A stretch of DNA of 64,000 nucleotides, from contig OZ026558.1 in the NCBI GenBank assembly GCA_964020155.1, positions 1,645,416 through 1,709,415 of the forward strand, written 5' to 3'. This stretch comes from Chondrilla cf. caribensis (lineage: Eukaryota; Porifera; Demospongiae; Chondrillida; Chondrillidae). The stretch's first letter is position 1. The number at the start of each line of letters is the position of its first letter. Positions 64 through 31,127 of the stretch are shown one piece after another. The position numbers and the translations under genes are program-made. Under the pieces are notes generated by a model. The model did no database searches, was not told the DNA's origin, and worked only from the letters and a program-made list of their open reading frames with translations.

Positions 64-3000
64 GCACTTGAACCAAAGGTCAAAAAGAAGAAAGTTGGTG
101 AGTTGAATAGTATCATTCCACTTTCTTTATGCATGCATATGTCCCTATGTACATGAGTTCCTACATATGTACATATATACCCAGCTTTCCTTCAGAGAGG
201 AGTTATATGTAAATATGTGTATGTCTGTGATATGTACGTACTATGTGTCTTTCTGTTTTTGGTGTCCTATAGTAACATGTATCACATTAATGATGATAGC
301 AATCTCTACTTGGGAGAGTTTGTGTCACCCTCCTCCAGAACTGTTGTCAATATGTACAAATTTACATGTGTAATTCTATACTATGGTTACTTAAGAGCGT
401 AGTTGAAGTTTGGTTACAGTAGCAGAATGTGGAATGTATGGCAAACAGTATATACGTATGTACATGCCAGGGGTGGTGAGCTCGGCCATCTAGTGCAGTG
501 TGTTATGAGTTTACTGGGCAGTACAAATTCAGGGGAAACATTAAGTGATACTTCCTACGTACACTAATCCTATATATGTAGTTAGTATATATTCAACTCA
601 CTTCACCTGTACTGTATATACGTAATTGCACTTATAGTACAGTACATACTGGATGTGTACATATGTGTAGTATGTATTCTGTACACACCTCATGTGGTAC
701 TTCTGACTTCACTTCCTCAAGTGGATACACTGGAATTGGACTTGTTTGGAGAGACACAGAGTTTATCTCAGTCAATGTCCTTCCACTTCAAGGTATTGAG
801 CAGGAGTGTGAACTGTACATTTGTGAGCAGTGGTGGTGTGAGTGTGGGAGTGAGCGTGGGAGTGAGTGTAGGAGTGAGGCTGGGAGTGAGGCTGGGAGTG
901 AAGCTGGGAGTGAGGCTGGGAGTGAGGCTGGGAGTGAAGCTGGGAGTGAGGCTTGGAGTGAGGCTGGGAGTGAGGCTGGGAGTGAGGCTGGGAGTGAGGA
1001 AGGGAGTGAGGCTGGGAGTGAGGCTGGGAGTGAGGCTGGGAGTGAGGCTGGGAGTGAGGCTGGGGTACTGGGACTGTCTCTTTGGGAAGCTTCCATTTGT
1101 CATCAGCTTGCGCAAGTCACCTACATGTTACCTACATATAATTTCCATGTCACCTGCATGTCACGTGTGTGTTGTCCACACGTACCCATGTCATTTGCAT
1201 GCCACATGTGTATCTACATATCTGCATGTCCCCTACTTGCAGTCTGTCTATTCCAGTATCTACATGTCTTCATGTCATCTATGCATGTTCCCTGCATGTT
1301 AACTGCATGTTGCACCACTAACCGTTCTGAGGTGAACACAGCAGACCTCATTCAATTCCTGTTGTGTAGGTGTGTGACAGTATTGTCAACATTGGGCCCA
1401 TTGGAAGTATGACCATTGGTGAACCAGAGGAGACATCGGTGGGTCTAGTGTTCTCTCTGCATTAGAAGCTCACACTACAGAGTATAGTAGTAGGAGACTT
1501 AGAGTGTTTAGTTGCAAACCTTTGTGTGATGCCCTGCAGTGAACTGGGTATGTACATACAACATGTGTACAGTGGGGTCTCCACAATCCTACACCTCGTC
1601 ATCCTCTTTAATCCAACCACATTCTGAGAAACAACCATCACCACAGGCTATTCTATGGGAGATCCCATAACTTTACAAACTCTCTATTCTGACATGTACT
1701 AGTTTCCCCTAAGAGTGTTGAATTGTCCAGCTCCACTGTACTTACATTGACATACGTACTTGCACACCTGGTGCCCCTTGTATGGCTTACAATAGTTACA
1801 TCAGAGATGGCATCCTCAAAAGCTACCTCTAACTGTCCACAGTTTGATTGTGATGAGTGTAAATTGCTACTGTACACTCACACACGTACATACTTATGTA
1901 CATGCGTATGTATGTATACGGTACGGACCAAAAAAAACTAAACGTTACCGGATAAAAGTTACCTGTTAATCAGATAACAGTTAACGCTTTTCGGTTAAAA
2001 GTTACCTGATTTCTGGTAACCGTTAACCGATAACCGTTAACGGATAACCGTCAATGGTACGTTATAAATTCTCAATCATTGAAAAAACAAGGTCTTAAAG
2101 TATCGAAGGCGAGTGTTTGAGTAACGATTCAAAAGCACAAAAGACATGGGAACATCTCTCCGTCTTCCTGGATCTATAATATAGTAGATTGACTCTTCGA
2201 CGGATCGTTCGTGAGTTACGCAATTCGCAGCTGTTATTTAGTAATATACGCTTACGTATCAATGATTACGCAATGAAAAAAACTACCAGTAACGGATAAC
2301 GGATAAACGTTAACTGTTAACTGAAAAACGGTAAAGGAGATTACCGTTTGTTTTTTTTTGAACCGTACTGTATATATGCTTATGTACATCTTCCTTTTTA
2401 TTTTATATATTATATGTGATACTTCGCACTCCCTGCTGGACGTATAGGAAGAGGTGAGTGTTTGTAGTTGCACCAGTTCTGAGAGACGTGTGTATGTATG
2501 TAGTGATACAGTGTACATACTGTATGTACATACTGTAGACCGTACATATATACATTATGTATGCGATCACTACCTGTACATACATACATGTGTATATTTT
2601 ATAGACTATCTTCTTTGTTGTGTTCGATACTGAAATGTGTACGCAGCACCACCCACCCACCACTGGTGAGGATCAATTAGGTCCGCACTTGGGCTTGAGG
2701 ACATGAGGTCCTCTTGATGGTAGCCAATAACCAACCTCCATTCATCCACCAGAACTCCACACAGCTGTTTTCACTTGTAATGGAGGTTCATTTGTATGGT
2801 TCAACTTGTATATATCTTGGACGGCTGCATCGAGATGCAGTTTTTAACCCAAATCCTGACCTCCTTTGTATAGCAAGAACATCATACAGCCCAACAGAGG
2901 ATTATACTGTATCAAATTCTGTGGGAAAGTCACCCTCTCCATCTTATGTACTTGTTCTACTGTAGTACCTTGGGAATGTGCACAATCCAAGCATGGAAGT

Positions 3001-3656
3001 GGTGACCTGTTCGGGTCACGGGAGGAGTGGAGCCCTGAGTGTCCTCCAGAGAGGTGTCAAACCTCACGTGGTCTCCACCTTTGAGCTTCCCGGACATGAC
3101 GACATGTTCACCTTGCTGGAGTCCCCCAACCAGGTGAGGTGTGGTGTACATACTGCGTTTTACTGGGTTAATTGTTTTTTTCCTGTACAATTAATGTCAT
3201 ACTGTAGCATTTAATACATACATATGTGTATGTGCATTCAGTTCTGAGTATCTACTGTTTTTATGTACATAAGTATGAGTGTGGTAATATTATTGTGTGA
3301 CTCAGGATGGATCAACGTCTGATGTACACAGTTACTTGCTTCTCAGTGGGAGTAGTGGGACTATGGTGAGTTTGCTGGTGATTATCTGCATAAGGAAAGG
3401 GTGTTCACATACGTACACACACGCACGCACGCACGCACCCACGCATGCACGCACGCACACACACTCACACACACACACACACTTCTCCTCTCTCATTCTT
3501 CAGTGTACTTTTGTGATGCATAATGTGTTGTGTGTTGTCTTTGTTAGGTGTTACAGACTGGGGAGGAGATAGCTGAATTGGGTCAGTCTGGATTTGTTAC
3601 TGACCAACGTACCATCGGTGCAGGGAACATTGGCAACTGTAGATATAATGTTCAGG

Positions 3657-3729
<73 letters not shown>

Positions 3730-6700
3730 AGTGCATGCATGCATGTGTGCGTGCGTGTGTGCATGTATGTATGTATACTTGCATTTGTGAGTGTTTGTGG
3801 TGTGCATTTGCACACGTACGTAGGTACATATGTACATAACTACATCACTACAGTTTACACATTGCTTTGTTGACTTGATATCTTAGACTACTTCTACCAC
3901 ATACACCAATTCATGTAACATGCATAGGATTCCATCGGTGATTATAATGTCTGTTTTTTTGCGTGTCCTCACCACAGGTCACATCTCAGAGTGTGGTTGT
4001 GCTTGAAGGAGGTACGTTCGCCTCACGTAGGGGATGGAGTGTGTGTTGATTTGTAGAATAGTGTGTGCACTAAGTATGTGGAAATGACGTACATACTAAT
4101 TTAATGAGGTACCCATAATAAACGTACAGGTGCCTATAATGACCACTTGTCTAAGCGGGTGTTGTGAACATGTGGGTATCTGTAGTGAACATGCAGGTAT
4201 CTGTATTATTCTACATATGGTGAGTGGTTGTATGCAGTATTGTACTAAGTTACTCACATTGCTGAAATGCTGCCACTGATATTATCCCAAGGAAGATAGT
4301 GACCTTAGAGAACATTGTTCTTTCTCTTGTTCTTCTCTGATCTTCCTTTCTTCCTGTCAGTATTCCTCTAGTGATAGCTGATTCTGCTAATTCACCCATC
4401 TCCTTATATAGCCTTGGCTGAGATGAGAATGATGTGTGTAGAGTTGTCATGGTAATTTCTTATTACCATGGTGATTTTGTTCTACACATTGAAAATAGTA
4501 TGAATATGACAGGAATCATTTTATCCCACTGGTTGGTGAGTGGTTGTGGGTAGCAGAGCAACAACTCACCTCAAGGATCTGTGTCTGTATATTATTCATT
4601 GTACACTGTTATACATATGGGTTGTTACTCTTATATGAATGCTATAGTAGATTTTGTACAACTCTCAATCTGGAAGGTTGCTATGCAGCAGTTTCATAGT
4701 TTGTGTTGGTCAAATTGGAAGCCATTTTATGCTCCACTTGCATAATAATATGTTCTGTGTAGACATGCAAATTCCAAACATGCAGGTATCTTTAGTGAAC
4801 ATACAACACAATAGAGCCTCTGGAAACATATCAATGATGGTTGGATCATCCTGCTTGTTAAGCTGGTGCTTCCATTCTCATATGTTATTATCACAATAAT
4901 ATTATAATAAATGGTTGGGTTGTGGTTGTGTATAGCAGAGCAAGAAACCTCCACAATGACCTGTGTATGACTGTTAGTATTGTCTCAGTGTGTATAGTGT
5001 GTAGGTGTAGTGATGAGGGAAATCCATCCATGCATCTGTGCAAATAATAATCGAATTATGTATCATGTACATCACGTTTTCTGATTATGTCATTAATATT
5101 ACAACTTTATCACTTATTGGTTATTCAAGTACATAATTTCATAACTCGCCAAAAACAATAATTGAAACTGTTAACCAATGAATAATATTCAGTCTCCACT
5201 CATTACATGTGCATGTTTGTTTGTATGTACGAATACATAATGAACTATTAAGGTATGATACTTGGTGCACATGTGCATAAACGTACATGATACTGTGTGT
5301 GTATGTGTATGTATGTACTGTATGTGTATGTGTAAAGTATTACATTTGTGCATGCATTATATTTCTGCATACAGTACACACACAGTGAGGGTGTTATTCT
5401 ATTATTTCTCCCAAATTCACTTCTTGTTAAACATTAGTTTCATTTCAACAAATTTGAATGAGTAGTATGGATGAGCACCAGGTTTGGCAAAGTTCTATGA
5501 GATGCCTATACCATCTAGATTACTCACTCCTCCCAAGTACTCACTGTTAAGATTAGCCTAGTGGCATCTGTTGTACCACCAACCTCCTCTGACTGGTTAA
5601 GACTGCACAGTTACTACCATTCCACTTGTCATGATCTTGGTCATAGGTGGTGAACACCTGTCCACTGTGGTAGGAGAGCTTATCTCAAGCATCTCCCCTG
5701 TATCCAGACACGTTCATTATAGAGATTATAGCAGTAATAATAGGAATTAGTGTAACAAAAATTAAATTCATTGCTATTCTAGTGGTTGGTTGTATAATTG
5801 GTGGTTTTGTGTTCAACTCACCTCAAGGATCTGTAATTTGAAGGTCATCCTTCTGTGCTGGTATGGGTTGTTTCCCTACATGAAAGCTACAATGGATATT
5901 TGTACTCATCTCAAACTAGCATGTTGCTATCCAGTAGCTCTGAGATGTGGAGGCTATAATTGAAACCTTTCATCTACTACTCATACATAATGGGAAATTA
6001 ACTGTTATTATGTATTGTATGTACAATCGGCAACACATTATAATTTGTTTTTAGTGTTTACTTTAAGTAATTAAGTAGCACAATTTCATGTACACTGTAC
6101 ATATACATGTACAGTGTACAAGATGTTGCTGGAGATTACCCTGATGATGCCATTGTGACATTGTTGGATAACCCTACCCCCAATCATCTCCACTACATAA
6201 TCATGTACAAGAAGAAGCTGTTGGAGAATACTATGATGACACGGATGTTACATTACCTCCACCAAATGATGGTGTATTACTATAATATCCAATCCAGTCA
6301 ACATTTCTGTATACCATTAGTTGTCAGGATAATTGAGTGACAGTGTTAAATATGCATGTACCACCCTGTGTTAAAATGCAGGCACATGTTAAACATCCAG
6401 GTGCCTGTGTTGAATGCATAGGTGTATGTATCAAACATGCAGGTGGTTGTGTCGAACATGCAGGTGTTTGTGTTGAACATGCAGGTGTTTGTGTTGAACA
6501 TGCAGGTGTTTGTGTTGAACATGCAATTTCAATTTCATTATTACTCAAAACAATGATTGAAACTTTCAACTAATGAATATTGCTGTTTACACACATGTAC
6601 ATACAAATTTGGATCTATTGTATATATGCATAATCTTATGTACTGATGTAATTGAATTTAAAATCATTATACATCAGGTATATATGTGCAATGCACATAC

Positions 6701-9700
6701 AGACATACACAATACTTCAAATCAGATTCATTTCTTGTTAAACTTTAGTTTCATTTCAACAAATTTGAATGAGTAGTGTGTAGGAGCACCAGGTTTGGCA
6801 TTGTCCCATGAGATGCCTCTAGCATTTGGATTGCTCACTCCTTCTCCCAAGTATTCACCGTTAAGATGAACCCAGTGGCAGCTGTAGTACCACCAACCTC
6901 CTCTGAATGCGACTGCACAGTTAACACCATTCCACTTGTCATGATCTTGATCATAGGTGGAGAACATCTGTCCACTGTGGCGGGAGAGCTGATCTGTAAC
7001 GTTTCCACTAAATCCTGACACAGTCATTTTGTAGTTGATGTTATTGTCTCCAACTGCGAACTGGGAGTATTCTGCATAGTAAGAGTTCCCTTCCCAGTCT
7101 CCTAACTCCACCCTGAGCTTGGTTCCAGGAAGGTTGTTTGTCATGCAGTGGATGTTGTCAAGTCCCATCCAGTATTCTCCTCTGGGGTTTCCAAATCCAT
7201 TGACATAACTGTTCCAGTTACGATAGAATCCAACTGCTCCGTTAAATCTTCTCTGGAAGACAGTCCAGTTTTCTTCCATGTCGCAATAAGCAGTGAAGGG
7301 TCCACACCCACAGTTCATGGTGTAGACTCCAGAACGTGAGCACCCATGTTGGTGAACTTGTTCACATCCACAGGGGGTGAGAGTTGGGCAGGTGTCATGA
7401 CCTTTAGCAGAGCCTGAATAACCAACACAATGAGAGATTATAGTGGATGTGAGCAGTTTGTGTCTTTTGAATCATGCAAAATTGTGAAAAAGAAGAAAGA
7501 TTTTGTCTATTGGAAGTGTAGACATATAGTTTGCTGTATACCCTGCAGGTACGTACATACGTATGTCCAGTATTTTATTATGTTTTGAAAGGTGTTGTGT
7601 TTTACTGGATGTGCTATGCAGTATAAGTATGTAACTATGCATCAGGTACCTACGTATGTTAGTATGTATTTATGTACACTGTATGTAATGTGTATTGTAT
7701 TGTTAAACTTGCATCTATCATTATGGCCCACATTATCCACTGTACACACAGCCTGTATGCAGTATTGTACTAAGTTACTCACATTGCTGAAATGCTGCCA
7801 CTGATATTATCCCAAGGAAGATAGTGACCTTAGAGAACATTTAGTTTAGTTACTTTCTTTAGTTCTTCTCAGATCTTCCCCTCTTCCTGTCAGTATTCCT
7901 CTAGTGATAGCTGATTCTGCTAATTCACCCATCTCCTTATATAGCCTTGGTTGGGATGAGAATGATGTATGGTGAGTTGTCATAGTGATTTCTTATTACC
8001 ATGGTGATCTTGTGTACACATTTGAACTAGTATGAAATTGACAGGATTCATGTTATTTGAGTGGTTGGTTAGTGGGTGTGCGTAGCTGAAAACAACTCAC
8101 CTCAAAGATCTGTGTCTGTAGTGTGGAGGTCTTCCTTGTGTGCCGTTATTGGTTGTTATATATATGCTTTTATATTATATGTTCTTTGTTACAATGTTGC
8201 TATGCAGCAGTTTCAAGTTTGTGATTGGATATTGGAAGCCTTTGAATGCTCTACTTGCTTAATACCATTTCTGTGTGTAGACAAGGCAGGTTCCTGTGTG
8301 TACGTAGACATGGCAGGTTCCTGTGTGTAAACATGGCAAGTTCCTCTGTGTCGACATGGCAGGTTCCTGTGTGTAGACATGGCAGGTTCCTGTGTGTAGA
8401 CAAGGCAGGTTCCTGTGTGTAGACATGGCAAGTTCCTGTGTGTAGACATAGCAAGTTCCTGTGTGTAGACATGGCAAGTTCCTGTGTGTAGACATGGCAG
8501 GTTCCTGTGGGTAGACATGGCAGAAATTTTATGTGGGGGGGGGGGCACATGTTGGTGGACTGGTAGAATAATAATAGTTAGTGAAGGCTATCATATCTTT
8601 GTTTGTCGACATGAATTTAATTAGTGACAGTTTCAAAGTCACAGTCAAAAAGTGGTATGCATGGCCATGGCTGTATCAGCTGTACCGGTTGCACCGGCCC
8701 TGATGTATATAGGGTTACATTTTGTATTACCCTTTCCATACATGTATGTATTATACTTTATGTGTATGTATGGGTAAATTCAATTTAATTCAACCTCCAC
8801 CATGATCTGTGCATAACTGTCTGAATGTGTTGATGTTAAGATCACTGTAATCTGCATCTAGTACCAATTAAACCATTACAGTATGTTGTGTGTTGCATAA
8901 TTTCAATTATTACCGTATGTGCTGTAACTTTCGCGGGGTTAAACTTTCATGTTTTTCATGGATCAGTAGCCATTCACAAACGTTTCATCCCTGAAAATTT
9001 AGACCAGACGGGCAATGAGTGTGTGGTTACGTCACAAACTGGGAAAATCGCAAAAACCGTCAATCCGCAAAAGTTTAACCACGTGAAAGTTAAAGCATAT
9101 ACAGTATGACTTCGTCAAATTCCTGTTAATTGAATACCCTAATGGCTGAAATTTTCGCGGGATGTAATTTTCGCGAATCGGCAGATTTGAGACTTTTCGC
9201 GTTTTTAATTTCGCGACTCCAACATCATTCGCGAACTTGACACCTACTAGGCTTTTAATGAGTAGATAAGTTAACTAACTAGTTACCTATTTCCACGTTT
9301 TAGCTCAGTGCGCCGTGTGTTCAAGTTCGGTTCTTTGTTGTTCGTTGGGAAAGGAATCCAGCAATGTCTCGTAGGTTCGAATTTCGGAGTTGCATTCGCG
9401 GATACCACGTTTATCAGAGTATTTGAAGCGGCAGCAGCGACCAGGTGCTGGCCTACCACCAGGAACCACACAACAGGAAAGACATGTTCCCTGTTGGAGT
9501 GAACGAACCCTGGTTGGGCGCGTTCCCCACAAGTTCTCTTGTGTGCTCTCACTCTTTGTAAGGCGCAGAGTAACAATAACATTCCAAGTTACTGGCTCAA
9601 GGCAGTATTCTAGCGATCTTTTTCGCGATTTTATTTTCGCGAGCTTCCCACATTTGCGAAATTCGCGAACATAAAGTCCCGCGAAAATTTCAGCCATTAG

Positions 9701-12700
9701 GGTATTTTTCACATCATTAGTCACTGAAGATAATAACATTATGTTTTCACACAGTGTATGTATAACATGTTTGGATATAATGTATGTATACACATATAAT
9801 TGACTAGTACATCATAATAGAGTACATGTGTGTATCTGTATGTCCATATATCATGTATGTTCAAGTATGTTGCCATGTGCATTACACACAGCCCATGCAT
9901 AATTCTCCAACTCAGATTTCCCACTTGTTAAACATTACTGTGTATGCATACGTAACTGACTGCTAGGTAATGATGTTATCATAGCAAGCATGTGTATGTA
10001 CTGTATGTATGCATTGCATTGTATGTACAATTTGTACACATTCTCCTCATCAGATTCACTTCTAGTTGACTTTTAGTTTTATTTCTACATGTTTGAACGA
10101 ATAGTATGGGCCATCACCAGGTTTGGCATGTTTCCATGTGAGTCATCCTGCATCTCTAACTCCTCCAGTGAGGTACTTACGTATATACTAACAGTATGGC
10201 AGGCGTTGTACCACAAACATATCACTGATCGTTAGTTCGTTTTCCTTGTTGTTCTGTGGATTATCACAATAAATGTTGGGTTGTGGTTGTGTGTAGCAGA
10301 ACAGCAAACCTCCACAATGACCTGTGCATGACTGTTAGTATTGTCTCAGTGTGTGTATATGTAGGTGTTGTGATGAGTGTAATCCGTGCATCTGTACTAA
10401 TTGAATTAAGTGTTGTGTGTATCATCATTTGTGATTACGTCATTTTATTACAACTCTATCACTTATTGGTTATTCAAGTACATAAGTCCATAATTCGCCA
10501 GAAATAATATTTGAAACCGTTAACCAATGAATAATATTCAGTCTCCACTCATTACATGTGTATGTTTGAGTATATGTACGAATACATAATGAACTATTAA
10601 GGTATGATATTTGGTACACATGTGCATAAATGTATGTATGTGAACATAAGTATGTTGTGTGTGTATGTGTATATGAATGAGGTATGTACGTTTGTACATG
10701 CTTTACACACTCACATGCATGTAGTACACACACAGAAAGTGTTATTCTATTAGCCCTCCAAATCAGATTCATTTCTTGTTAAACTTTAGTTTCATTTCAA
10801 CAAGTTTGAATGAGTAGTATCGATCAGCACCAGGTTTGGCATAGTCCCATGAGAGACCCTTAGCATCTGGATTACTCCCTCCTGCCATGTACTCACCATT
10901 GAGATTAACGCTATGGCATCTGTTGTACCACCAACCTCCTCTGGTTAAGACTGCACAGTTACCATTCCACTTGTCATGATCTTGGTCATAGGTGGTGAAC
11001 ATCTGTCCACTGTGGTAGGAGAGCTTATCTCCAGCATCTCCGCTGTATCCTGACACGTTCATTCTATAGTTAGTACTACCATCTCTGACTGCGAACTGTG
11101 AGTATTCTGCATAGTAAGAGTTCCCTTCCCAGTCTCCTAACTCCACCCTAAGCTTGGTTCCAGGATAAGTGCTGGACATGCAATAAACGTGTTTGAGCCC
11201 CATCCAGTATTCTCCTCTGGTAACTCCAAATCCATTGACGTATTCAGTCCAATTGCGATAGAATCCAACTGCTCCGTTAAATCTTCTCTGGAAGACGGTC
11301 CAGTTTCCTTCCATGTCACAATAAGCAGTGAAGGGTCCACACCCACAGTCCATGGTGTAGACTCCAGAACGTGAGCACACATGTTGGTGAACTTGTTCAC
11401 ATCCACAAGGGGTGAGGGTTGGGCAGGTGTCATGACCTTTAGCAGAGCCTGAATAACCAACACAATGAGAGATTATAGTGGATGTGAGCAGTTTGTTACA
11501 ATTTGTATCTTTTAAATTCTAAATTGTTTTCAAGAAAAAAAGATTTTAAATTGTATGTACACCATATAAGTATATACATATGTACAGTTTTTAACTATGT
11601 TTCGAAAGGTGAAGGGTTTAATTTACTGGATTTGGTATGTAGTATAAAATTTAGTATGCCCCAGGTACCTAGTATGTACACATGTACTGTGTTAGTTGTT
11701 GTGTTAGAGTGTTAATTTGTATATGTGAAGTTTTAATTGTGTGTAAACATGGCCCACATTATCCACTGTACACACAGCCTGTATGCAGTATTGTACTAAG
11801 TTACTCACATTGCTGAAATGCTGCCACTGATATTATCCCAAGGAAGATAGTGACCTTAGAGAACATTGTTCTTTCTCTTGTTCTTCTCTGATCTTCCTCT
11901 CTTCCTGTCAGTATTCCTCTAGTGATAGCTGACTCTGCTTATTCACCCATCTCCTTATATAGTCTTGGCTGGGATGATAATGATGTGTGTAGAGTTGTCA
12001 CGGTAATTTTACATTGTCATGGTGATATTGCAATGATAACTGAATTTTGAGTGTCTTGATTGAATTTCATGCTATCCCAGTAATCCGTTAGTGGTTGGTT
12101 AGTGGGTGTGAGCAGCAAAATGACCACTCACCTTAAAGACCTGTGTGTGTAGTGTGGAGGCCTTCCTCATGTGCTGGTACAGTATGAGCTGTCTGTGGAT
12201 GGTACAAAGGATATTACTCATCTCAAACTAGCTTGTTGCTATACAGCAGATTCATGATACCCACGTGAAGGCTATGATAGAAACTATTGTCTTCTACTTG
12301 TGTAATCAGTGAGAGAGACGCTAACTCAAGTTTAATAATGTGTGTTTTGCTCATCATCTGTGCTGGTCCATAAATTATCATTGATATAATATAACACTCA
12401 TGAAGGTATCCACGCACCCAATGATGTTTCTCTTCAACCAGACAGTGGCTGTTTTATATTGAGTAGCAGTTTTAAAGCCAGACATTAAAGTTGATGTGCG
12501 TACATAGACGGGTTTTGCAGATCAACTTACAATTGTGGGGCTTGTATCTGATATGGATGTTATAAGAATCAAATTTCTGTAGCATGTCATCATGTTTATA
12601 CTGCAACATAATTTAATTATAGTTTTGTAGCATGATTTGTTATTATACTGTGGTTTGATCATAATTCTTCTGTTGTCCGATCACAATGTAACTGTAATTA

Positions 12701-15700
12701 AATTATAATGTGATCATAATTTGATTGTATAACAATACAAACTTGATTCCTATCATGTGAGTTAATGCCTACTTCACTGAACACATTTTATCACCATTCA
12801 TCTCATTTTAATACAGAAACATGTACGTACGTGTATAACATATCTCATGACCTACCATACATTCGTATGTACATTTTAATCATGATAGTATTATAACCAT
12901 GCACCTATTTCATGTAGCCAACACTTGAGGTCCAATTATTGACTACTTAGACAAATACCACTAGCTGTACATGAGGTTCCATTAAACATCCTCCGCGGGT
13001 CTCATAGGTGACCACATTAGACAGGTCCCACAGGTGACCACGTTAGACAGGTCTTGTAGGACAGTTTCCTCAGTACTTAACACACATTTCTATCCTTTAG
13101 CTTGTTGGTGAAGCTTTAGTTTCTACTGAACTTGTTCAACCTTTAACAATTTTCTGTTCTTTTGCCTATAGCTAACATTGTACAGCAAGTGTCCATTGAA
13201 AGTGGTTTGAACATCCACTCCTGCTCAATATCTGATCCCTACATCGTCTTGTTGCTTAGCGATAGTAGCCTGCGGTTAATCACCCTGGAGTGTGGGATGA
13301 TGGATGTTGAAAGTGAACAAGACCAGAGTGTGAGGATCACGTCTGCCTCTCCAAGTATTGACCAAGTACGTATGTGAGAATGTTGTAACAGTCTGACCAC
13401 TCTACAACGACACATTTTACTGGGACAGTCTCTGTATAATAGCTTGTCTTGTGGGACATTGTGTATTGCCACACACACAGTACACATTAATTGTGGTGTT
13501 ACACCAGCAAACTGTTTATAATGGTGGCCTGAATGAAGTTTGAGAGAAATCACAACATTCACTTCAATGGAAATCAGGACGTTCCAATCCGTTGATCTTC
13601 TTCAGTTCTATATCTATATATGTGGTATGTTGCGTGGGCAACTTCAAAGGAAAAGCAGTGCACACATTCGTGATGTGTGCACACTTCCCTGATGTACGCA
13701 CACTTCATTCGATGTTGCATTGTTGTTGCATTGTGGATAATTGGTTATATCCTTTTCACACGTTTACTAATCATTGCTCTATCAATGTTACGCCCACGCA
13801 ACATACCACATAATAACTAAAATGTAATTTAAGTTCAGCTTGAATAAGGTTAATGTCGTAATCGATAGCTTGCTCGCGACAATACAGCCCGCCAAAGCCA
13901 TCGTGTGACGTCATGAGTGAGCATGCGCAGTCACCCGCCACGTGTGAATCCGCTCTGGCAAGGACGAGAAGTGCTCCACAGCGCAATTTTTTCCTTTTTG
14001 TCGCTACTCGCTACTGCTTCGAACCTCCCCGCTCCATTACGTCTCTCGTAGTCGATTGTGTTCCCCGATTATGGCAGAGGAGTCATCTCTAAACGACACC
14101 TACCCCCAGCCCTCTCAAGGTTTGTCCTGGTGTACTCTCACACTCCCTACACCCGGACCTGCCCTAGCTGACGGTGCCCCGAACGGACGACCAACCCGCC
14201 TCGCCGACGGCATACATTTTCATACATCCAACAACATTTTTGCTTAATACGCATGCATACACGGCGAACAGCTAATCGATGTATGGCATACACGGCCAAA
14301 AGCGGTTTTCGCTAACACGCGTGCACACACGGCGAACAGCATATCGTTGCACGGCATACACGACGAACAGTACATATCCATATACGGCATGCATGGCTAA
14401 CACTGCACATGCCCCCTACCTCATACACGGCACACCCCCTTTACAACATAAATAGCTAGCATGACACACAAGGCTCTAGGAATAGGCCCCGCCCAGTTCT
14501 GTTTTACCATCCCACACACAAGCATCAACCTATACCCATGCCAAGGGGCATGTTGTGCACTTTAACAGTCGCATGGCTTATTTCGACAAGGCCATAGATC
14601 CATGGATTACCCACTGTTGTACCAAATCCCCTCTACATACCATCAGCGAAGACACACATGCTGCCAACCACCCACATACATGCTCGAGCACAGTATGGTG
14701 TACACATACACGCGAGTACATGCACTTTTACGTATACAGGCAGTTAAGGCCGGGCCCACATGACCTATTCATATACTGCTGCCCACCCCCCAGGGCACAC
14801 AGGCACACTGAGCGGCACAGCAGTTGCAGCCCCGAGCTTCCTCCAACCGCAAACACCGGCACCACCCACTATAGGCGAAGGGAATTCCCCCGTCCCCACA
14901 GCCTCAACCCTCGGACAACCGGCTGCAACTACAGTGCATGTCCCAGTTCAGACACCCAGCCCCAGCAAAGACAAGGAGGATCTCACGCTCCCAATCTCGG
15001 GCCTGCCACCCATACCAGCACACATGGTGGAGGCCATTAAAGCTCGCCAATTCGTGGCACTTGGAGACCTGCTCCCTGAGGCCTTACGAGATGCTGCATT
15101 TGATCGCCAGAGTAAGGACCTCAAAGAAGAGAAACGAAAGCGTTCTCCCCCCCTGTCCAACCCAACTGATTGGATGTGCGCCTACGCCACATACATGGCA
15201 GTTACCGTACACTTTCACCCAGAGCGTGCCTTTGAGATGGCCGCATACGGCCATATTATAGCTGGATTGGCTCGGGACATTGGTGGCCAGGCCTGGTCAA
15301 GATATGACCGTACCTTTCGCCAGGCAGCCGCCGTAAACCACAAATTACCATGGTCCAAGCGGGAGCAGGACATCTGGCTTCAAGCAGCTTGCGAACCTTC
15401 CCACGGGGCGCCTCTGGCAACCAATGTCCGCTCTCCATCAGTACAGACCACCTTGCTACCAGCAACCCGCCCACCTTTGCAAGCAGGTGCACCACAACCT
15501 CGCCGCCTACCAAGCCCTGAACCATGCCGCCTGTGGAACAATGGGCGTTGCACATACCTAGCATGCAGATATCGGCATGTATGCTGGTACTGCTCGGCGC
15601 CCACACACGTGGGCCCACAGTGCCCCCTCCAGCAGCAAAAAGGCACATGGGCTTCCACTCGCCACCCATTGGCAAAACCTTAGGCCACAGTACGGGCATA

Positions 15701-18700
15701 AACTCCCCGCATATTGAGGGTGAACTCAGTGATTGGGTTAACCACGCAGCAGCAGGCATTTACACGTTTGATGATCATTAGTACTAGGACTCTCACTTTT
15801 AGTCATCCATTCACTTGTTATCCATCTATCTTGTTCCTGTTCTGTTTGTTATCCTTGGTGTAACAGATCAATTAATACATAGTTTTATCAATGTCGCTTT
15901 CCAACACGGGGCGTTCATACCGATATCGCCGGGGGTCCAGCCAGCTCCAAACTTATGCACCAGGTGCCTCGGCACCTCCGAACTACATAGCTTCGCAAAG
16001 AGCTGCAAGCACACCAATGTAAATGGCTTTAGAGCACACATATTAATACACTCTATATAATACTCTCACATAGGTGATAACCATCCCCCATGGCCTGCAG
16101 TCACAGCCATAGCACCCATCCTAAGGCGTCAGTTCTGTAAACTGCAGCAGTCACAGCTGGACCCTCCTCCGCTGCTAGGCCTCCCACCTGAGGTCACCAC
16201 ACGCCCTATCGCCACTCCCCTCAAAGTCGAGGCCTGGCAGACCGCACTGGCCTCCCACCCGGACAAACAATGGACAGCAGCCCTAATCTCAGGCCTACAG
16301 TCAGGGTTCCGCATCGGCCTTGCCACCAGCCACACATGCCACTCTACCCTAGTCAATACTCCCTCAGCACAGCAGCATTCACCGGTGGTGGACACCTTTC
16401 TTTCTGCCCAGTGGGAGCAAGGATATCTCCTGGGCCCTTTCCCCCCTCAGGAATGTCCTGCTGTCATCACCAGTAGCTTAGCTGTCATCCCAAAAAAGAC
16501 ATTCGGCAAATGGCGAGTCATTGTGGACCTTTCGCGTCCAAAGGGCCATAGCGTCAATGACTCCCTGCTGCGTCAGCACACACACTTGGCATACGCATCG
16601 GTCGAGGATGCAGCTCACATAATGCACCACCTGGGACAGGGAGCTCTCTTAGCCAAACTGGACATAAAGGATGCATATAGAATTGTACCCATCCACCCCT
16701 ACGACCGCAGGTTCCTGGGAATTCAGTGGAAAAATAATGTGTATGTGGACTGCCAACTACCCTTTGGACTAGCCTCTGCACCCGCCATTTTTTGTGCCCT
16801 CAGCCAGGCGTTAGAATGGATCCTCAGACAACGAGGCGTCGGCTCAGTGCTCCACTACATTGATGATTTCTTACTGCTTGGCCCTCCCAATTCACCCCGC
16901 TGTGCACACGACTTAGCCCTTACTCTCAGCACTTGTGCAGAACTTGGCATACCCTTGGCACAGGAGAAGATTGAGGGACCCGTCACTGCACTTTCATTTC
17001 TTGGGATCCAATTAAGCTCCCAGCACATGTCCTTGACGTTACCAGCAGACAAGCTCCAACAGCTGCGCAGCCTCCTACGGGAATTCATCCAGACACCACG
17101 CGTCTATAACCACAGTCGTTTCGAGTCACTAGTCGGCCATTTAGTACATGCCACAAAGGTGTGCCCATTAGCTAAGGCATACCTCAATGCATTATTCGAC
17201 TTTAAGGCTTGCCTGAAACCTGGTCAGCCTCGGCGCCTGAACAAGGAGGCTCTGACTGAGATTGCTTGGTGGGACACCCTCCTCAGCCAATGGCAAGGCA
17301 CGTCCGTACAGCAATTCCTCCTCCTGAGACACCCGGACCATCATCTATTCACCGATGCATCGGGTTCATGGGGCTGTGGGGCATGGTGCGGGACCCAATG
17401 GCTGCAAGTTCCGTGGTCTTCCACCTCACCCCTGACTTCCATCGCTCTCAAGGAGCTGTTTCCTGTAGTCCTTGCTGCAGCTGTCTGGGGCCACAGCTGG
17501 CACGGGTGCCTCATCATATGCCACTCTGACAACATGGCAGTGGTGTGTCAGGTCAACAAATTACATGCTCGAGACCCACTCGCTGCTCACATGCTCCGGT
17601 GCCTCGCTATGTTTCAGGCTTTATATGATTGTCGAATACGAGCAGTACACATCCCAGGTCGGGCAAACTACGGGGCTGACAACCTATCTAGAAATCGTAG
17701 CAAGTCCTTTCTGACTGCTCATCCCACTGTATCTCCTCAGCCCACTCAGGTCCCACAGATGGCCCTCAGTCGCCTCACACAGGTGGACCCCAGTTGGACC
17801 TCGCAAGCCTGGAGAGAGAGCTCCAACGATTTGTGGAGGCTGGCCTGGCACCATCCTCCCGGAAAGTGTATGCCACTGCTTGGAAGCGATACACACGCTT
17901 TGCTACAGAGTTTCACCTCCTCCCCTTGCCCATCACAGACGAAAAGGCCATCCTGTTTGTTGCCTTTCTAGGGACCCAGGGCCTCTCCCCGTCCACCATT
18001 GAATCTTATTTGGCAGGACTCCGTCACGCCCGCCTCCTCACTGATCCCTCCCACATGTTTCCCTCCTTCCATACCCCATATGTTAAACTTCTCTTGCGAG
18101 GTATCGCACGATCATCTACACACCCAACCCGCACTCGACTCCCTATCACCCAGTCCATAATGAACCGCATCAAGTCGATACTTGCCCAGGAACCCCAAGT
18201 CTTCGCAAATCTCATGCTGTGGGCAGCATGCTGTGTCGGATTCTTCGGTTTCCTTAGATGCAGCGAGTTTCTCGTCCCCGATGGTATCACATTCGACCCG
18301 GAGGTACATCTGGCTGTTAATGACCTCATCTATGTCACGTCAGCAGATCCCCCTCATGTGGAGCTAAGAATTAAAGCCTCGAAGACTGACCAGCTGCGCA
18401 GAGGTACTACAATCTCCCTGGGCTCCACAGGAGGGGAATTATGCCCAGTGGCAGCATTGTTTGATTATCTCAATGCTCATGGAGGAGCCGCAGGACCCCT
18501 TTTCATATTGCAGACAGGCCATCCTCTCACTCGGGCTCCTTTTGTAGCTCAGTTGCAACATGTTCTCTGTCAGGCTGGACTCCCTGGTAACCACTTTAAT
18601 GGACACAGCTTTCGCATCGGGGCGGCCACCACTGCAAGCCAGGTCGGCATACCTGAAACCACCATAAAAATTCTGGGCCGATGGAATAGCCTTGCATATC

Positions 18701-20871
18701 AGACATACATCCGCCCTTCTCCTGCACAGCTTGCTCAGGTTACAGGTATCATGGCACGTGGTGTCAACACACCCTCGACTCATCAGCAGCAAAGCACTCC
18801 AACAGATCTCGCAGGCCCACACCCGCGTAACTGACACCACCCCGGACACCCGTGTCACCATCTGCAGCACGTTTACATAACCCACTCATTTTAGATTATA
18901 ATAGAGCCTGTGCAAGTATGGAAATTGTTATCATGTTGGCTAATTTGCGGATATAAGTGCATGCGACCTCAAACCTCTACATATTAGAGGGACACCAGTA
19001 CATGTACATTTGCTATGTATGTCACACATGCAGCAGTGGTGAACGGACTATCTCAGACTGGATTCTCATGACTAGGAAATAAAGGATACCTATACACACT
19101 CACCTGGGGACCCTGGATTCCAGGACTTGGGCCTGCCCCCAGGTGTGACCTTAGAAATAGGACCAGGACAATATATCCCTACGTCAGGCCATAGTTACAC
19201 TAGGGAAATTACCTAACAAAGCCGCTACCTCAAGCTAAGGGCAAAGGCCTTAGGTCAAAGTCTGCGTAGGTCAAATCCCACATGCTGGTCACGTGCGCCT
19301 GGGGGCGGGTCCCTTTGGACCCGAACCTCCAAGGACAAACACGCTCGGGTTCTAAGGGCCCGTTCGTTCCCATATACCATGGCATTCTTTGCATTCATAG
19401 TATATAATAAGGTTGGATAGCACATGCCCCTTGAAATTATCCCCTGCCTCAAGTCAATAATACTAGCCTGCCACACTTGCGTTAGATGAAGACATTAAAT
19501 GTAATTTAAGTTCAGCTTGAATAAGGTTAATGTCGTAATCGATAGCTTGCTCGCGACAATACAGCCCGCCAAAGCCATCGTGTGACGTCATGAGTGAGCA
19601 TGCGCAGTCACCCGCCACGTGTGAATCCGCTCTGGCAAGGACGAGAAGTGCTCCACAGCGCAATTTTTTTTTTTTTTTTTTTTTTTTTTCCCACTTACAA
19701 AGTGGGCCGGGCTCCATTGGGCCTGCCCCCAGGTGTGACCTTAGAAATAGGACCAGGACAATATATCCCTACGTCAGGCCATAGTTACACTAGGGAAATT
19801 ACCTAACAAAGCCGCTACCTCAAGCTAAGGGCAAAGGCCTTAGGTCAAAGTCTGCGTAGGTCAAATCCCACATGCTGGTCACGTGCGCCTGGGGGCGGGT
19901 CCCTTTGGACCCGAACCTCCAAGGACAAACACGCTCGGGTTCTAAGGGCCCGTTCGTTCCCATATACCATGGCATTCTTTGCATTCATAGTATATAATAA
20001 GGTTGGATAGCACATGCCCCTTGAAATTATCCCCTGCCTCAAGTCAATAATACTAGCCTGCCACACTTGCGTTAGATGAAGACATTAAGTACCTCTGGAG
20101 AAGCTGTAGCGGATACAAACACCTTTGCCTAATCGACACCTCGGGCTTCGCCCTCGGTATCAATTAGACAAAGGTGTCTGTATATCCGCTACAGCTTCTC
20201 CAGAGGTACTTTAGCTATTACCTATATCATATGTAATAGTTATATCCTGGCGTGGTAAATGATAGACAATTTATACTGCAAAGATGCACATAGCTCAATA
20301 CAACATATCATATGCAATAGAAATGTGTTTACTAATTTCCTGCCTCGTTCTCACGCAATTAATCCTAACAATGAAACCTCTCTGGTGACCTGTGCTGTAT
20401 CACTGACCTGTGCTACATGGCTACTGCAATGTGCTGTGTCCACACTAATTTTAATCATCACAATGGATGTGTCACATGTTATTCAAAGTGTTATTGTTAC
20501 AAATAATCAGATGGAGTCATCACTATAGATGTGTTTCACATGTTTTCCAAAGTATTGTTGTCGCTGATTATCAAATTTAGTTTCAAGTGCCTGTTCTATG
20601 TGAACCTTGTAACCCAGGCTAGTTAATTCCTTATTTGGTTCTCTTTCAGCCATCCAAGATCACTTGTGTGGGCACCTACACTGACAAAAGTGGTATATTC
20701 TCCACAAGTGCCCCAAGGGCAGTGGACATCAGCAGTGTAGTGGTGAAGAAGGAGCCCATCCACAGTGATGACAGATCCAGGAGTGACTCCTACTCACGGT
20801 ACATACAGTTTGTGTGTACGTACGTGTATGCGCGTGTGTGTTTGTGTGCATGTGTGTGTTTATGTGCGTGC

Positions 20872-20957
<86 letters not shown>

Positions 20958-20984
20958 ATGTGTGTGCATGCATGTGTCTGTGTT

Positions 20985-21040
<56 letters not shown>

Positions 21041-21054
21041 TGTGTGTGTGTGTC

Positions 21055-21124
<70 letters not shown>

Positions 21125-21164
21125 TGTGTGTGTGGATGCGTGCGTGCATGCATGTGTCTGTGTT

Positions 21165-21215
<51 letters not shown>

Positions 21216-21457
21216 TAGTGGTGTCAGGTAATGGTCTATGTTGGTCATCTATGATAGTGGTGTATGGCACAGTTAGTTCATGTATAACACGTACAGTACT
21301 TCATGAATGTAATACCATTGTATGTATGTACCTTAGGCTTACCTCCACACTTGATGATGAAGATGAGATGTTGTATGGGAGCTCTTCTCAGCCAACAGCA
21401 GTGACTACCACACAAGTGGACATGGAGCAGAGTACAAGTGTAGAGTATGTTTGCATG

Positions 21458-21529
<72 letters not shown>

Positions 21530-23311
21530 TGCTTGTGTGTATGTGTGCGTTAGATTTTATGTTACAGTACATGTACACAGTTCATAGCACTCAATGTGTA
21601 GAACATACAGTAATCTGTAATGTATTTATTTTCTCTAACCTTACAGAGATGCTGATGAACTGTTCAGAGGAGATGACACAGATTCTGTAGAGCCCACTCA
21701 CTGGTGTGCTGTGACTTATGAAAGTGGAGCTTTAGAGGTACGTATGTAAGCCCATTCGCATGTGTACTTTGTGCTGCCATTTCAAATGGTACATAGTGTA
21801 TGGCAAGCACAGGCACATATCAGCCCATAAGCACTGACTTTATCATCTTACTGTGATTGTTCTATGTGAAATTGTGATATATGCGCTTAGTTCAGATGGG
21901 GAATGTTTAAAGTAGAATTTACTCATCCAAGTTCATTGTCAATTGTTATCAACTGTTTGTTAAGGGACGTTTCCACACAAAGTAGGACTAGTTACCAAAT
22001 CAGTACTTTCTGATCATCAGCACAGGTAGCACACATAAGTATGTGCATAGTACTGCATGTGAAGCTACTACATGGCTGTTGTAATTGCATATAATAATAT
22101 TATATTTTTTCATATGTACATGTACGTATGGACTATATTATATATTATACATACGTAAGCATATTATGTGTGTCACTCTGTAATTGTGGAAATCTACACT
22201 CGAATGCAATAATGTTCTCGTAGTGCTACTTACACAGCTCAATCTTACTTGTTCTTGTATTTCAACATATGAGTGTCATTTTCTGACTGTGGCTGTGTGG
22301 CCTACTTATGCATAGGCCTTTTACCATTCTTTCACCTGTCGGTTTGTGTAGGTGTTCAAGCTACCACAGTTTGCACCTGTCTTCTTTGTGAGGTCATTTA
22401 CTAATGGCCCTAAAGTCTTGAATGACAGCCTACCTCTGAGGTGAGTGTGTGAGACCTTATTGTCCTGTACAACTGAAGGAGCTCATGTTCTTGTGTTTGC
22501 ACAGTATTTTGTGTTTACCTTTGATGAAGCCTTACATTAAAGGGTGTTGGTGTGCTGTGAATTGTTTACATTGGACTGACTGCAAAGTGTATAAATAACT
22601 TTTCAATCAAATTCGCTTGTATGGCTATGCTATACGAGTAATCCACCATCTTGCTGATCCGCTATCTGCCATTTTTGTGTACTAATTTGCACTTTTGTAT
22701 GTGCACTGGTTACAGATAATCCACCAAGTGCCAAGAATTTGTGTTAGTGTAGAACAAAATAGCAGCTAAACGTTTTAAAATTGACTTGACAATGAAGCAG
22801 AGTAAGTAGATTTGAGATTACAGAGAGAGGAATACTTACAGACCATTCCTCGAAGAAGAGGACTGTACAAATTGCACAACAAACCGTAGGAGGCATCCTG
22901 AAGAAGATCAGCATAATCCATTATATCGTTGATCTGTCAAAACTACCCCCGAACCAATTGCAACGGATTAACAGAAATTCCCTAATGTATATAACGTGGG
23001 ATCCAATAGTGAATTGTTGATCTCTGTGGCTTACTGTTATAATCCATACTGATGTGGTTGTTACCGCATATTCAAGATTATCTACTGTTAATGATTGTCT
23101 TTCTTTCTACTTGTGTATGTTATGAACTTTCATAGTTCACCTGTTAAGATGGTAACGCCCACTTATAATGTAAGGGACCTCCTCCTGATTGGAATGGGGC
23201 CGAATGAAGAATATCCATACATAATCGTAAGTGCTTGTAATAGTGATATTGTATCTCAAAGAGACTGTGTACACGTGGCTGTACATTGTGTAATTGTGAT
23301 TATTTGGCAAC

Positions 23312-23353
<42 letters not shown>

Positions 23354-26300
23354 TTATAGTACGAGAGCATGAACTCATGAACTAATGTTTTGAATTTCAG
23401 TATTCAGTGAGTCAGTATGTATGTGGCAGAGTTGAGTGTTGGTTTTATGTACGTACATACACACTGTACATGGCTGCCTATATAGCTATCAATCAATTAA
23501 TCCTGACAATGAAACCTCTCTGTTGACCTGTACAGATGTACATGCCAGACCTATGCTACACCACATGCATCAGAACACTTCTCCATTTGATCCACATATC
23601 AATTACCCATGCACCAAGATGCAATGCACGATATTACACAATACTGCACACTATCAGCACCTGTTCAAATTATTGTCTCCCTTCACTGATAGAGTGTAGT
23701 GGACGAGGAGGTGTTGATGTACAGGGCTTTCCAATCTCCTAACCCTAATGACACTGGACGGCTGCAGTTGCATTTCATCAAAGAAAATCATGATGTAGTT
23801 GTGAGAGAGAAGAAGAGTGTCAAGTTGCACCAAGGTTGGTTGCTGGTTTGCCCTCATTTTGCCCAAATGAAGGGTGCACCCTTGATCCATGCAGCGTTCA
23901 CCTGGAAATATGGTATGGTTTGAAAAACAAAACTGAACGGTTATCTCCTTTACCTTTTCTCCGTTAACTGTTAACCGTTATCCTTTAACAGTTTACTGGT
24001 AGTTTTCTCATATTGTAATCATAATGTCAATTCGTAAGCGAATATTACCTAATGACTGATGTCAATTGCATAACTAATGAACAATCTGTCAAGGGAGTCT
24101 GTCGACCAGATCCACGGAGACAGAGATGGTCCTATGTCTTGTAGTTTTGAATTGTTGCCCAAATGCTTGCATTCGATACTTTAAGTCCTTCTTCTTCAAG
24201 GATGAAGAATTTATAATGTGCCATTGACTGCTATCTGTTAATGGTTATCAGTTAATGGTTAACGGAAATCAGTTAACTTTTATCGGTTATCGAATTAACA
24301 GGTAATGTTATCTGTTAATGTTTATTTTCTTCAAACCATACTGTATTCCAGTGTTAAACACCCATCCTTCATGTGGTACTGTGATACAATTAGGACTTGG
24401 TATAGAGTGTAGTTATGGAAACTTTGATCTACCCATCTACACAAAATACCACGTGAAAACACACTACAAAGTTGAGCATATGTAAGTACTTATATTTCAA
24501 TGAATAAAGCTCTTCATTATGATCTGTCTTGTAAGGGGTGGTTCACAGAAATTCCCTTCTACTTCGTTTGCAGGTGAGGTTGTGGCAGACAAATCCACAG
24601 GTCCTTCTCCCTTTATCAGGATATTGAGACCTTTCAGAGATGTTTCAGCATATTCAGGGGTGAGGGTACCTGATACCTTATACGCACCTTATGTGTATGT
24701 ACTGTACACATGTACATATAATATATGTACATGCGATAGCTGTATCCTGGACAATATAGAGTGTGCATATACGCATGGTTCAATTTTTTCAAATTTCACA
24801 TCACTTATACGTGTAACTGCAATAATGATTGTATACTATAATTTCATATGTAACAATACACACATGGTTCAATACAACATATTTCATGCGAAAGTATTAT
24901 GTTTACTGTAGACATAATGTCCAACCTGGTTCTTGATCAATAAACCCTCCATTAACAAACCTTTCTGGTGACCTGTGCTGTGTCACTGACCTGTGCTACA
25001 TGGGTTGCATAGGCACAGTTTTTCCTATGATCCACTCCTCGACAAATACTTTATTATTATGTACTCAGGTGTTTATATGTGGAGCTTACCCTCACTGGCT
25101 TGTGATGAGCTCTAGAGGGTGCCTTTGTGCCCATCCGATGTACATTGATGGTCCAGTGGACACCTTTGCCATGTTCAACAACCAGAACTGCCCGAAAGGC
25201 TTCCTCTACTTCAACCAGGAGGTGAGTAAGAGGAGATGGGCTTATGTATGTAATCTGGATCAAATTCTTTGTCTTGTGAATGGTCTTGTGTAGTTCCTTG
25301 TCATTGATCCGGACCTAACCCCTGTGAATGTTTACTGTCTGTTGTAAGGTTTGATGCATTGTACAAGAGGTGATGATACTGACCTGTTATATCTCAACTT
25401 CAAAAACCCGAGAAACAGTAATGCTCATATGCAACCGTGAGCCTACCAAGTCCTGATAGTATTAGAGATATCACATATGTATGTACACCGACATACGTAC
25501 ATACTTAGAGATACACAAGTTGTACGTATGTGCATACACACTTGAATGAGATGTACTGTACTATATTTGTATATAATCTTTGTTAGCGTACAATAAAGAG
25601 TAAGCCATCCAGATCCTCACGATGTGGTGGTGTTGAGTGCTAAGTGACTAACTGTCAACCATTAAATCTGGGAGAGACACAGTCCCCCTCTGCACTCCTC
25701 CCTGGTTTCAATGCATATTTGTGATCCACTTTGTCCCTGTCACACTGTCCAGGGTGAACTGAGAATATGTGTGCTGCCTAAGTATGTCCACTATGATCTC
25801 CACTGGCCCACGCACAAGGTACCGCTCAAGGCTACACCTCACTTTGTAGCCTACCATCCTGAAGCCAAGGTGAGTATATACCCTAGAACAACACTCTACA
25901 TATGTACGGTGGATTCTCATTAACCTGCCATGATTCATTTTCAAAAAATATGGTGGATTAACTAGATATTTGTTGGTACTTGTACATTATATTGATACTG
26001 AGAAATTGTGGTAGATTGAAAGGTTTGGTGGATGAAGCGATGGTGTATAAGTGAAAATTCACTGTTAACACAATTACTATTTGACAGTGTGTGTTTGGAA
26101 CTGACTGGTCCAATTCTGGAGAACTATTCAATAGTGTTGCACCGATATGTTTTTTTACCAATAATCCGATTTGCCGATACTTACTAGCAAGCATTAGCCG
26201 ATGTATTTAGCCGATCCGATATTAAAATTATATTAGTGTATGGGAGCACTACCAAGGGTGATGTTGTGAAGAGGTCTGACTGAATACTGATGTATGGGAG

Positions 26301-27008
26301 CACTACCAAGGGTGATGTTTTGAAGAGGTCTAACTGTATACTAGATGCTTGGAAAATACAACGAAGTAAAAAAAATAAAAAATAAAAAAATATAAAAAAA
26401 TCGGTAAGGATATGCACCCGATATGCATGACAATGCCTATAATCGGCCGATAGCCGATAGCCGATCCGATTATCGGTGCAACACTACTATTCAACTAGCT
26501 GTATACAACTCCATCATTTCTCTGAATGCAATGTGCTCACCCACCTCCTTTGGTGCTTGTAGGTCCATGCAGTGGTCACTGGAGAGGCTTTTCCTGTGAA
26601 GCAACTCCCGGTGATCTCCAACGATGACATTGAGGGGATGGAGCCAGTCGAGAGAGGTTAGTTTGTGCATGTGGGTTTGTGTTGGTTATCTGTGCATGTA
26701 GTTGGAGGTGACATCCTCATCCCTGACTGGGCAAACAAGTAGAACAACTGTATATGGGGAGACCTTTTATGAGATTCCCATGAAATGTTACCGATAGTTA
26801 TTTTTTGGGCACTTTATTGTATCGATTTGTTGTGATGCAATTATTAACCAAATGATGATCAAATGAGTTAGTTCTTGATTTTTACGGTTCATCCAATTTA
26901 TCCTTAAGCTTTGCACTTCAGAATATTACTGAGTGGGTGACTCATTGGTATTTATGTATTGGAGTTTATTCTCACCCCTCGTCCTATTGTGTGCATGTTC
27001 TTCTATTG

Positions 27009-27081
<73 letters not shown>

Positions 27082-30747: not shown

Positions 30748-30944
30748 ATTATAACTGCCGGGCAGCCTATGGTGCTGGGAAACTTGAATCATTAGACTAT
30801 ACATGGTGGTATGTCCTGTATGTCTCCTCGACTGCTCAGGGTCACAGTGTCCCCATGTCCTAACACTGGACGGTAGTAAGGCTTGTTTTCTCACTTCTGA
30901 TAAGTTGATGGTGGTCATGAGAAATGGGCAGATGTGAGTGTATG

Positions 30945-30948
30945 TGCG

Positions 30949-30997
<49 letters not shown>

Positions 30998-31090: not shown

Positions 31091-31127
31091 GGGGGATGCA
31101 TGTGTGAATTCTTCTCTTTGACTTTAG

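Follow-up and report, generated by a model that had tools for sequence, protein, structure and literature searches.

We analyzed a 64,000-nt stretch of DNA from the sponge Chondrilla cf. caribensis (hereafter the window; scaffold C13:1645416-1709415 of a 137-Mb genome in 37 scaffolds) and found that the gene for the mRNA-processing factor CPSF1 carries, within one of its introns and on the opposite strand, complete genes for proteins with a fibrinogen-related domain (FReD). The locus as a whole is best explained, with a probability of roughly 0.75, as an opposite-strand nested FReD array in CPSF1 that was later duplicated together with the front of its host gene. Coordinates are given in window numbering throughout, negative values and values above 64000 referring to flanking sequence of the same scaffold.

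The host gene comprises, in the window, 24 exons (64-29672, plus strand) that splice to a single frame of 812 amino acids (aa) with AG/GT at every junction. The product matches residues 444-1248 of human CPSF1 (6bly_A) with an E value of 1.5e-178, whereas the matches to DDB1 (3e-15) and SF3B3 (1e-5) are far weaker. Exons e1-e7 (64-4011) are intact and are followed by e8 (13172-13365) and e9-e24 (20650-29672), after which the contig stops within the following intron. Between e7 and e8 lies a phase 1 intron of 9,160 nt (4012-13171). An earlier note, made from the window sequence, had proposed that the exons at 3978-4011 and 13172-13365 join in phase, and this is indeed the case: the former encodes 11 residues plus 1 nt, the ends are GT/AG, and the join is part of the frame matching 6bly_A. 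Furthermore, the CPSF1 of a relative (P0121, 1390 aa, from a transcript-like 5.5-kb JGI contig, 69% identical) aligns without a gap over the 4011|13172 join (VLEG|ANIVQQ), and the intron is thus real by homology. Based on the frame and this alignment, the CPSF1 mRNA is most likely spliced across the FReD-bearing intron, which would then be removed in vivo. The same note had named misplacement of the FReD blocks by assembly as a possible objection; in this copy, the stretch from e7 to e8 is read without any N and lies entirely inside one contig.

On the minus strand of this intron, both complete FReD genes with TATA boxes of their own that had been described beforehand were recovered. Gene 1 (6728-7840; exon 1, 7783-7840; exon 2, 6728-7413) encodes 247 aa including a signal peptide, and gene 2 (10769-11866; exon 1, 11809-11866; exon 2, 10769-11448) encodes 245 aa. 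The coding exons of both genes are located wholly within the one host intron. Their promoter elements, also on the minus strand, span 7937-7989 and 11955-12007, respectively: the TATA sequence TATATAAG is found 103 nt ahead of the ATG in gene 1 (7937-7943) and 95 nt ahead in gene 2 (11955-11961), and an X-box-like site is present with two mismatches in gene 1 (7976-7989) and with one in gene 2 (11994-12007). In addition to the two complete genes, the intron holds, on the same strand, one orphan exon 1 and two degenerate exon 2 fragments. The orphan exon (4258-4315) encodes a signal peptide, has a TATA box at -95 as well as an X-box-like site and forms the left border of the array; no exon 2 belonging to it was found leftward. 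The fragments are the 3' half of an exon 2 (5412-5724), with stops within the match and delimited by the extent of the repeat, and a piece matching exon 2 that also contains stops (10059-10178).

Exon mapping revealed that the front of CPSF1, from the start codon to about e10, is present in seven tandem units, U0 to U6. U0, U1 and U2 start at -87.5 kb, -64.4 kb and -23.8 kb, and U3 contains the gene described above (copy 1 of the window). Beyond a scaffold gap of 200 N (30548-30747), which splits contig A (U0-U3) from contig B (U4-U6), follow U4 (copy 2 of the window), U5 at about 90.4 kb and U6, visible from 111 kb onward. Only U3 and U6, one on each contig, extend into the 3' half of CPSF1 (to e24), and the last CPSF1 exons are visible in U6 alone because the contig of U3 ends. 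Parts of U0, U3, U5 and U6 contain stretches of N, where an unseen exon is not to be equated with an absent one. U3 and U6 are clean wherever readable, and e8 is intact in U6 too. The partial units are in different states. U1 carries a stop in e4. In U4, e1 is one base longer before the donor, which shifts the frame, and the e8 donor is changed from GT to GG. U5 has a frame break in n1 and has lost the e7 acceptor. U2 is intact through e7, with AG/GT at each splice site, and carries a stop in e9, while in U0, which is partly unread, n1-n4 and e4-e7 are intact and the e10 acceptor is changed. No e8 was detected in U5 or in U0, U1 and U2, the last three of which have no N between e7 and e9.

The junctions between these units share one structure. 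In the full gene, a (GT)n tract follows e10 (21445-21550, plus strand); in the truncated units, the corresponding tract runs directly into sequence that precedes the start codon of the following unit. At all four of the junctions J01, J12, J23 and J45, the region homologous to the upstream side of the U0 start codon begins at the identical base, right after (GT)n. The tract stands behind e10 in J01, J12 and J23 and behind e9 in J45, at which e10 was not found. Because the breakpoint is common to the four junctions, one ancestral tandem duplication fits best. On the left flank of U0 (about -89.3 to -89.1 kb), the unit seems to start within a coding-looking stretch that resembles, by eye, a 2-oxoglutarate oxygenase, and each unit may also carry a piece of this upstream neighbour gene.

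FReD genes lie antisense behind e7 in all seven units. We grouped the exon 2 matches over 229 kb into 31 loci, excluding two extra 42-residue pieces. All 31 are on the minus strand, with the CPSF1 exons on the plus strand, and 30 of them lie in a CPSF1 unit with e7 on one side and e8 or e9 on the other; the remaining locus, at 99041, comes after e7 of U5, and its right flank is unread. The e7-e9 interval of U0 contains three more FReD matches (about -76.5, -73.4 and -71.5 kb). A frame of at least 215 aa is kept in 27 of the 31 loci. The complete layout, consisting of a 58-nt exon 1 for a 19-residue signal peptide, a phase 1 intron and a single Fibrinogen_C exon, is present in 25, two of which have a partial exon 2 copy between their exons. 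The promoter elements recur in the same way. Among 36 exon 1 matches, a 14-residue piece was dropped, and all 35 loci tested have TATATA[AG] at -86 to -103 and an upstream X-box-like site with at most two mismatches, the ATG being kept in 34. Such a site was seen in 1 of 200 shuffled promoters, and the whole 249 kb contains 81 of them. These elements suggest that each FReD gene is independently transcribed from its own TATA promoter. As for the 3' ends, AATAAA or ATTAAA occurs within 300 nt past the stop (e.g., flank 6428-6727) in 3 of 27 FReD genes, compared to about 60% of shuffled flanks, the copies being related and not independent. The genes may use another 3'-end signal or have long 3' ends.

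Copy 2 had been presented in the earlier note as having the same intron, with five genes over at least 28 kb. Five complete FReD genes of two-exon layout are indeed found inside the window on the minus strand (37138-38258, 41394-42408, 46213-47344, 54963-55905 and 59857-61502), but the rest of this description does not hold. U4, represented in the window by exons n9-n11 and e1-e7 (30840-35932, plus strand) with the frame shifted at the end of e1, is truncated, damaged and on another contig beyond the gap, and what was described is therefore not the intron of an intact gene. The genes lie in an e7-e8 interval of this damaged partial copy; the interval spans 52,446 nt (35933-88378), ends at an exon to the right of the window and contains 12 complete FReD genes and one partial one. 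With e10-e24 not found by exon mapping and the e8 donor lost, we rejected copy 2 as a second tandem host gene. Homology between the CPSF1 introns of U3 and U4 stops at 4205. Units of about 23 bases (GTGTAGACATGGCAGGTTCCT-like) are tandemly repeated between FReD genes at 8268-8523 and 49000-53350, with an expansion in U4, and a reverse transcriptase fragment (56386-57387, minus strand) lies within the U4 array.

We hypothesize that a founder FReD gene, of a subfamily with members on scaffold C1 as well, inserted into one CPSF1 intron, probably in a single event. Within this intron, head-to-tail multiplication would have yielded a row of genes for secreted, ficolin-like single-domain lectins, all antisense to CPSF1 and each transcribed from a TATA promoter of its own. 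A later tandem duplication that broke within the (GT)n tract behind e10 would have copied the CPSF1 front along with the array, and further unequal exchange would have generated a row of truncated CPSF1 fronts, each with its row of FReD genes. On each contig, this row would end in one CPSF1 with the 3' half, whose mRNA would be made by splicing out the entire antisense row.

The product of the gene at 6728 matches Fibrinogen_C (PF00147) with 185.9 bits, compared to a curated cut-off of 22. Among solved structures, ficolin-2 is the closest (2j3f, E value of 1.2e-48), and techylectin-5A (1jc9) matches with 5.9e-35; named database matches are from Corticium and Ephydatia and also from Solemya, Mytilus and Styela. 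Ten cysteine columns are invariant in all 27 FReD proteins, and aspartate is present at alignment column 154 in 27/27, at column 156 in 20/27 and at column 158 in 19/27. The products are most likely secreted, ficolin-like single-domain lectins and may have a recognition role. The family had been called fast-evolving and possibly immune. The signal peptide, ficolin-2 as the nearest structure and the variation in the C-terminal half, where windows reach ratios of nonsynonymous to synonymous substitution rates (dN/dS) of 0.57-0.81 compared to 0.15-0.44 in earlier windows, agree with this; the overall rates do not, as mean dN was 0.091 and mean dS 0.213 over 351 pairs, for a ratio of 0.43. Positive selection on whole FReD genes was not seen, none of the 351 pairs exceeding a dN/dS of 1 (maximum, 0.94).

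Genome-wide, 150 of 468 candidates were scored, and the counts for the subfamily are thus lower bounds. Among the scored matches, it has at least 32 members on C13 and at least 35 on C1, all on the minus strand, with two short matches on C20 and C23; the other FReD matches listed are below 50% identity. In a tree with six C1 proteins sampled from the 35, the 27 C13 proteins group as a single clade (support, 0.75) nested among them, which fits one entry into CPSF1, with modest support. The TATA box, the X-box-like stretch and the signal exon are repeated in the C1 array. In four stretches of C1 (5840001-5858000 and 5940001-5960000), SRCR and immunoglobulin frames on the plus strand were seen to the left of this array. 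To its right, the plus-strand frames match a hormone-receptor motif weakly, below the cut-off, and contain sequence that looks GAIN-like by eye. The array may be nested in a host gene too. A single adhesion G-protein-coupled receptor as a host around it was discarded, a composite query having given nothing that scored.

The state of the truncated units bears on whether they are functional, either as a short N-terminal CPSF1 (about 573 aa, start codon to e7) or as alternative 5' cassettes spliced to e8-e24. In favor of such a function, the frame of U2 is open through n1-e7 with AG/GT splice sites, and e8 was not found in the N-free e7-e9 intervals of U0, U1 and U2. Over n1-e7, U1 and U2 differ by 20 synonymous and 8 nonsynonymous changes (388 and 1316 sites), compared to a neutral expectation of about 68 nonsynonymous per 20 synonymous (p 6e-8), and for the 19 unit pairs with at least two n1-e7 exons available for comparison, the ratio of nonsynonymous to synonymous differences per site (pN/pS) ranges from 0.03 to 0.30; the two pairs compared over a single exon are uninformative (U4-U5, 0.87; U5-U6, 1.78). 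Relative to n1-e7 of U1-U2, more amino acid changes are seen in e9/e10 of the partial units (Fisher p 0.02 for U0-U3, with nine nonsynonymous and four synonymous differences, and 0.005 for U1-U3). However, this excess may be ordinary because conservation of e9/e10 is low in any case (51-62% identity to P0121), and at least three of the five partial units are damaged (U1, U4 and U5). Moreover, the constraint could result from exchange within the FReD arrays, by which 5' halves would be swapped with that of the full gene. Along 1.7 kb of FReD sequence, U1 and U6 share 98.5% identity, whereas their neighbouring CPSF1 sequence is 76% identical in one 2.2-kb alignment with gaps counted (10% mismatches in gap-free columns of e1-e7). 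Since the FReD blocks are more alike than the adjacent CPSF1, exchange inside the arrays is likely, and truncated units may have received functional 5' halves in this way. Pure neutral decay was rejected for U1-U2, with exchange as the likely reason, and functional truncated copies appear unlikely to us. The more far-reaching proposal that some fronts (U2, perhaps U0) make N-terminal CPSF1 or alternative 5' exons for e8-e24, so that lectin array and polyadenylation factor form a compound locus of haplotype-variable copy number, with FReD induction possibly coupled to mRNA 3'-end processing, is speculative and rather improbable.

Interference of FReD transcription with CPSF1 is possible in principle, by analogy with other nested genes. 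Two reports describe human nested genes and intronic L1 elements that can cause intron retention and cryptic polyadenylation (PMC3192792) and a C. elegans nested gene that induces a short host transcript (PMC12274878). The nesting could accordingly be maintained because antisense FReD transcription regulates CPSF1, by lowering the full-length form or by shifting poly(A) choice in an immune response. However, the intron shows no depletion of host-strand AATAAA (4 seen, 2.7 expected), and an array of the same subfamily exists on C1, in four searched stretches of which no CPSF1 match was found. We regard regulation as the reason for the nesting as very improbable and prefer a nested array that was later duplicated along with its host.

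A separate question is whether a single locus is represented twice, contigs A and B being its two haplotypes, wrongly put in series by scaffolding. This would change copy number only and is compatible with the nested, co-duplicated array; U0-U3 would then belong to one haplotype and U4-U6 to the other, each ending in one full CPSF1, and copies 1 and 2 would not be neighbours. The risk of misassembly at the contig level is real. The 200-N gap stands between the contigs, and the CPSF1 3' half occurs twice, once per contig, while two further CPSF_A genes, assigned no further than by the Pfam profile search, are found in one place each, on C9 and C8. For fragments elsewhere in the genome, this search used two Pfam families that cover parts of CPSF1 only, and the PF10433 profile missed even the known C13 copies. 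The FReD search also listed eight database proteins from a 339,624-base ENA contig, all eight identical to contig B genes, and eight from a 1,744,575-base ENA contig, five of them identical to contig A genes; the remaining three do not occur in the sequence retrieved, and one of them shares 96.9% identity with the U3 gene at 6728. This suggests that another assembly has the A and B gene sets on different contigs, as structural alleles. On the other hand, dS between U3 and U6 over e12-e24 is 0.064, which is high for alleles, and three U3-U6 alignments over the exons and introns of e12-e24 are 91%, 93% and 96% identical, while U1 and U2, partial units of the same contig, are equally alike (96-97%) in part of the 5' region and 86% identical further on. 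In addition, no N run is present at the expected end of contig B, were it the 339,624-base ENA contig. Simple allelic collinearity of A and B was not seen, the identities forming a mosaic. On balance, we lean slightly toward two haplotypes. The nesting in U3 is independent of this question.

Several points weigh against the explanation that we favor. It is drawn from DNA sequence, and the copy number depends on an assembly with a central 200-N gap and more N runs beyond the window. The position of the C13 clade within C1 sequences depends on 6 of 35 C1 genes and has modest support. The likeness of the FReD promoters may reflect recent common descent only. Finally, the constraint between U1 and U2 exceeds that of simple dead copies, unless 5' halves were recently exchanged with the full gene.

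Some additional features were observed. The e8-e9 intron of CPSF1 contains a retroelement (13820-20088) with a reverse transcriptase frame (16385-17971), a tyrosine-recombinase-like frame (17794-18834) that has a weak Pfam match under the cut-off, and split direct repeats (13820-13999 matching 19497-19676 at 98.9%; 19127-19498 matching 19717-20088 at 100%). This layout presumably resembles that of DIRS/Ngaro-type elements. Elsewhere in the genome, C2 and C12 hold very large other FReD families, accounting for most of 150 scored among 513 candidates; some C2 matches form equal-score pairs about 124 kb apart, perhaps from a recent or a false duplication. A FReD match at C7:1875820-1876356 lies in an open frame of 3,598 aa and possibly belongs to a very long fibrinogen-domain protein.

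Taken together, the expansion of a lectin family appears to have caused the front half of an essential host gene to be duplicated repeatedly along with it. The locus offers a test case for how an intron tolerates a growing gene family and for whether selection keeps truncated host copies, and if A and B are haplotypes, it represents strong structural variation around an essential gene.

Like ficolins and soluble fibrinogen lectins, the FReD products combine a Fibrinogen_C domain with a signal peptide and invariant cysteines, and their DQDHD segment aligns with DQDND of ficolin-2, which we take to be the calcium site. Unlike ficolins, they are single-domain proteins: no collagen-like Gly-X-Y stretch was found in the two products examined, the 19-residue signal exon is joined directly to the domain exon, and a minority of copies have an altered or partly deleted DQDHD. 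Mollusc FREPs are variable fibrinogen-domain families proposed as recognition proteins, with immunoglobulin domains upstream; in contrast, exon 2 of the FReD gene tested encodes Fibrinogen_C only, and exon 1 the 19-residue signal peptide. In protocadherin-like cassette clusters, several intact variable 5' units are spliced to a common 3' part; here, U2 is intact through e7, U1, U4 and U5 are damaged, and U0 is partly unread. In the sponge Dysidea avara, the expression of some FReD genes goes up and that of others goes down after microbial elicitors (PMC6208332). Those genes are likewise fibrinogen-domain genes and ficolin-like by similarity.

Opposite-strand nesting is known and common in animals, with 567 opposite-strand pairs in C. 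elegans (PMC12274878) and 2,357 nested intronic genes, on either strand, in the ctenophore Hormiphora, where four genes nested in one host are shown (PMC8527503). We did not find a nested tandem family with repeated co-duplication of the host front in the literature searched, which left most subscription papers outside its coverage. Compared to the nested genes described in these sources, the present locus is alike in that genes lie in one intron of an unrelated host on the other strand, and it differs in that a tandem family occupies the intron and the host front half was multiplied along with it. These co-duplicated host fragments, which still show constraint, are the unusual part of the system.

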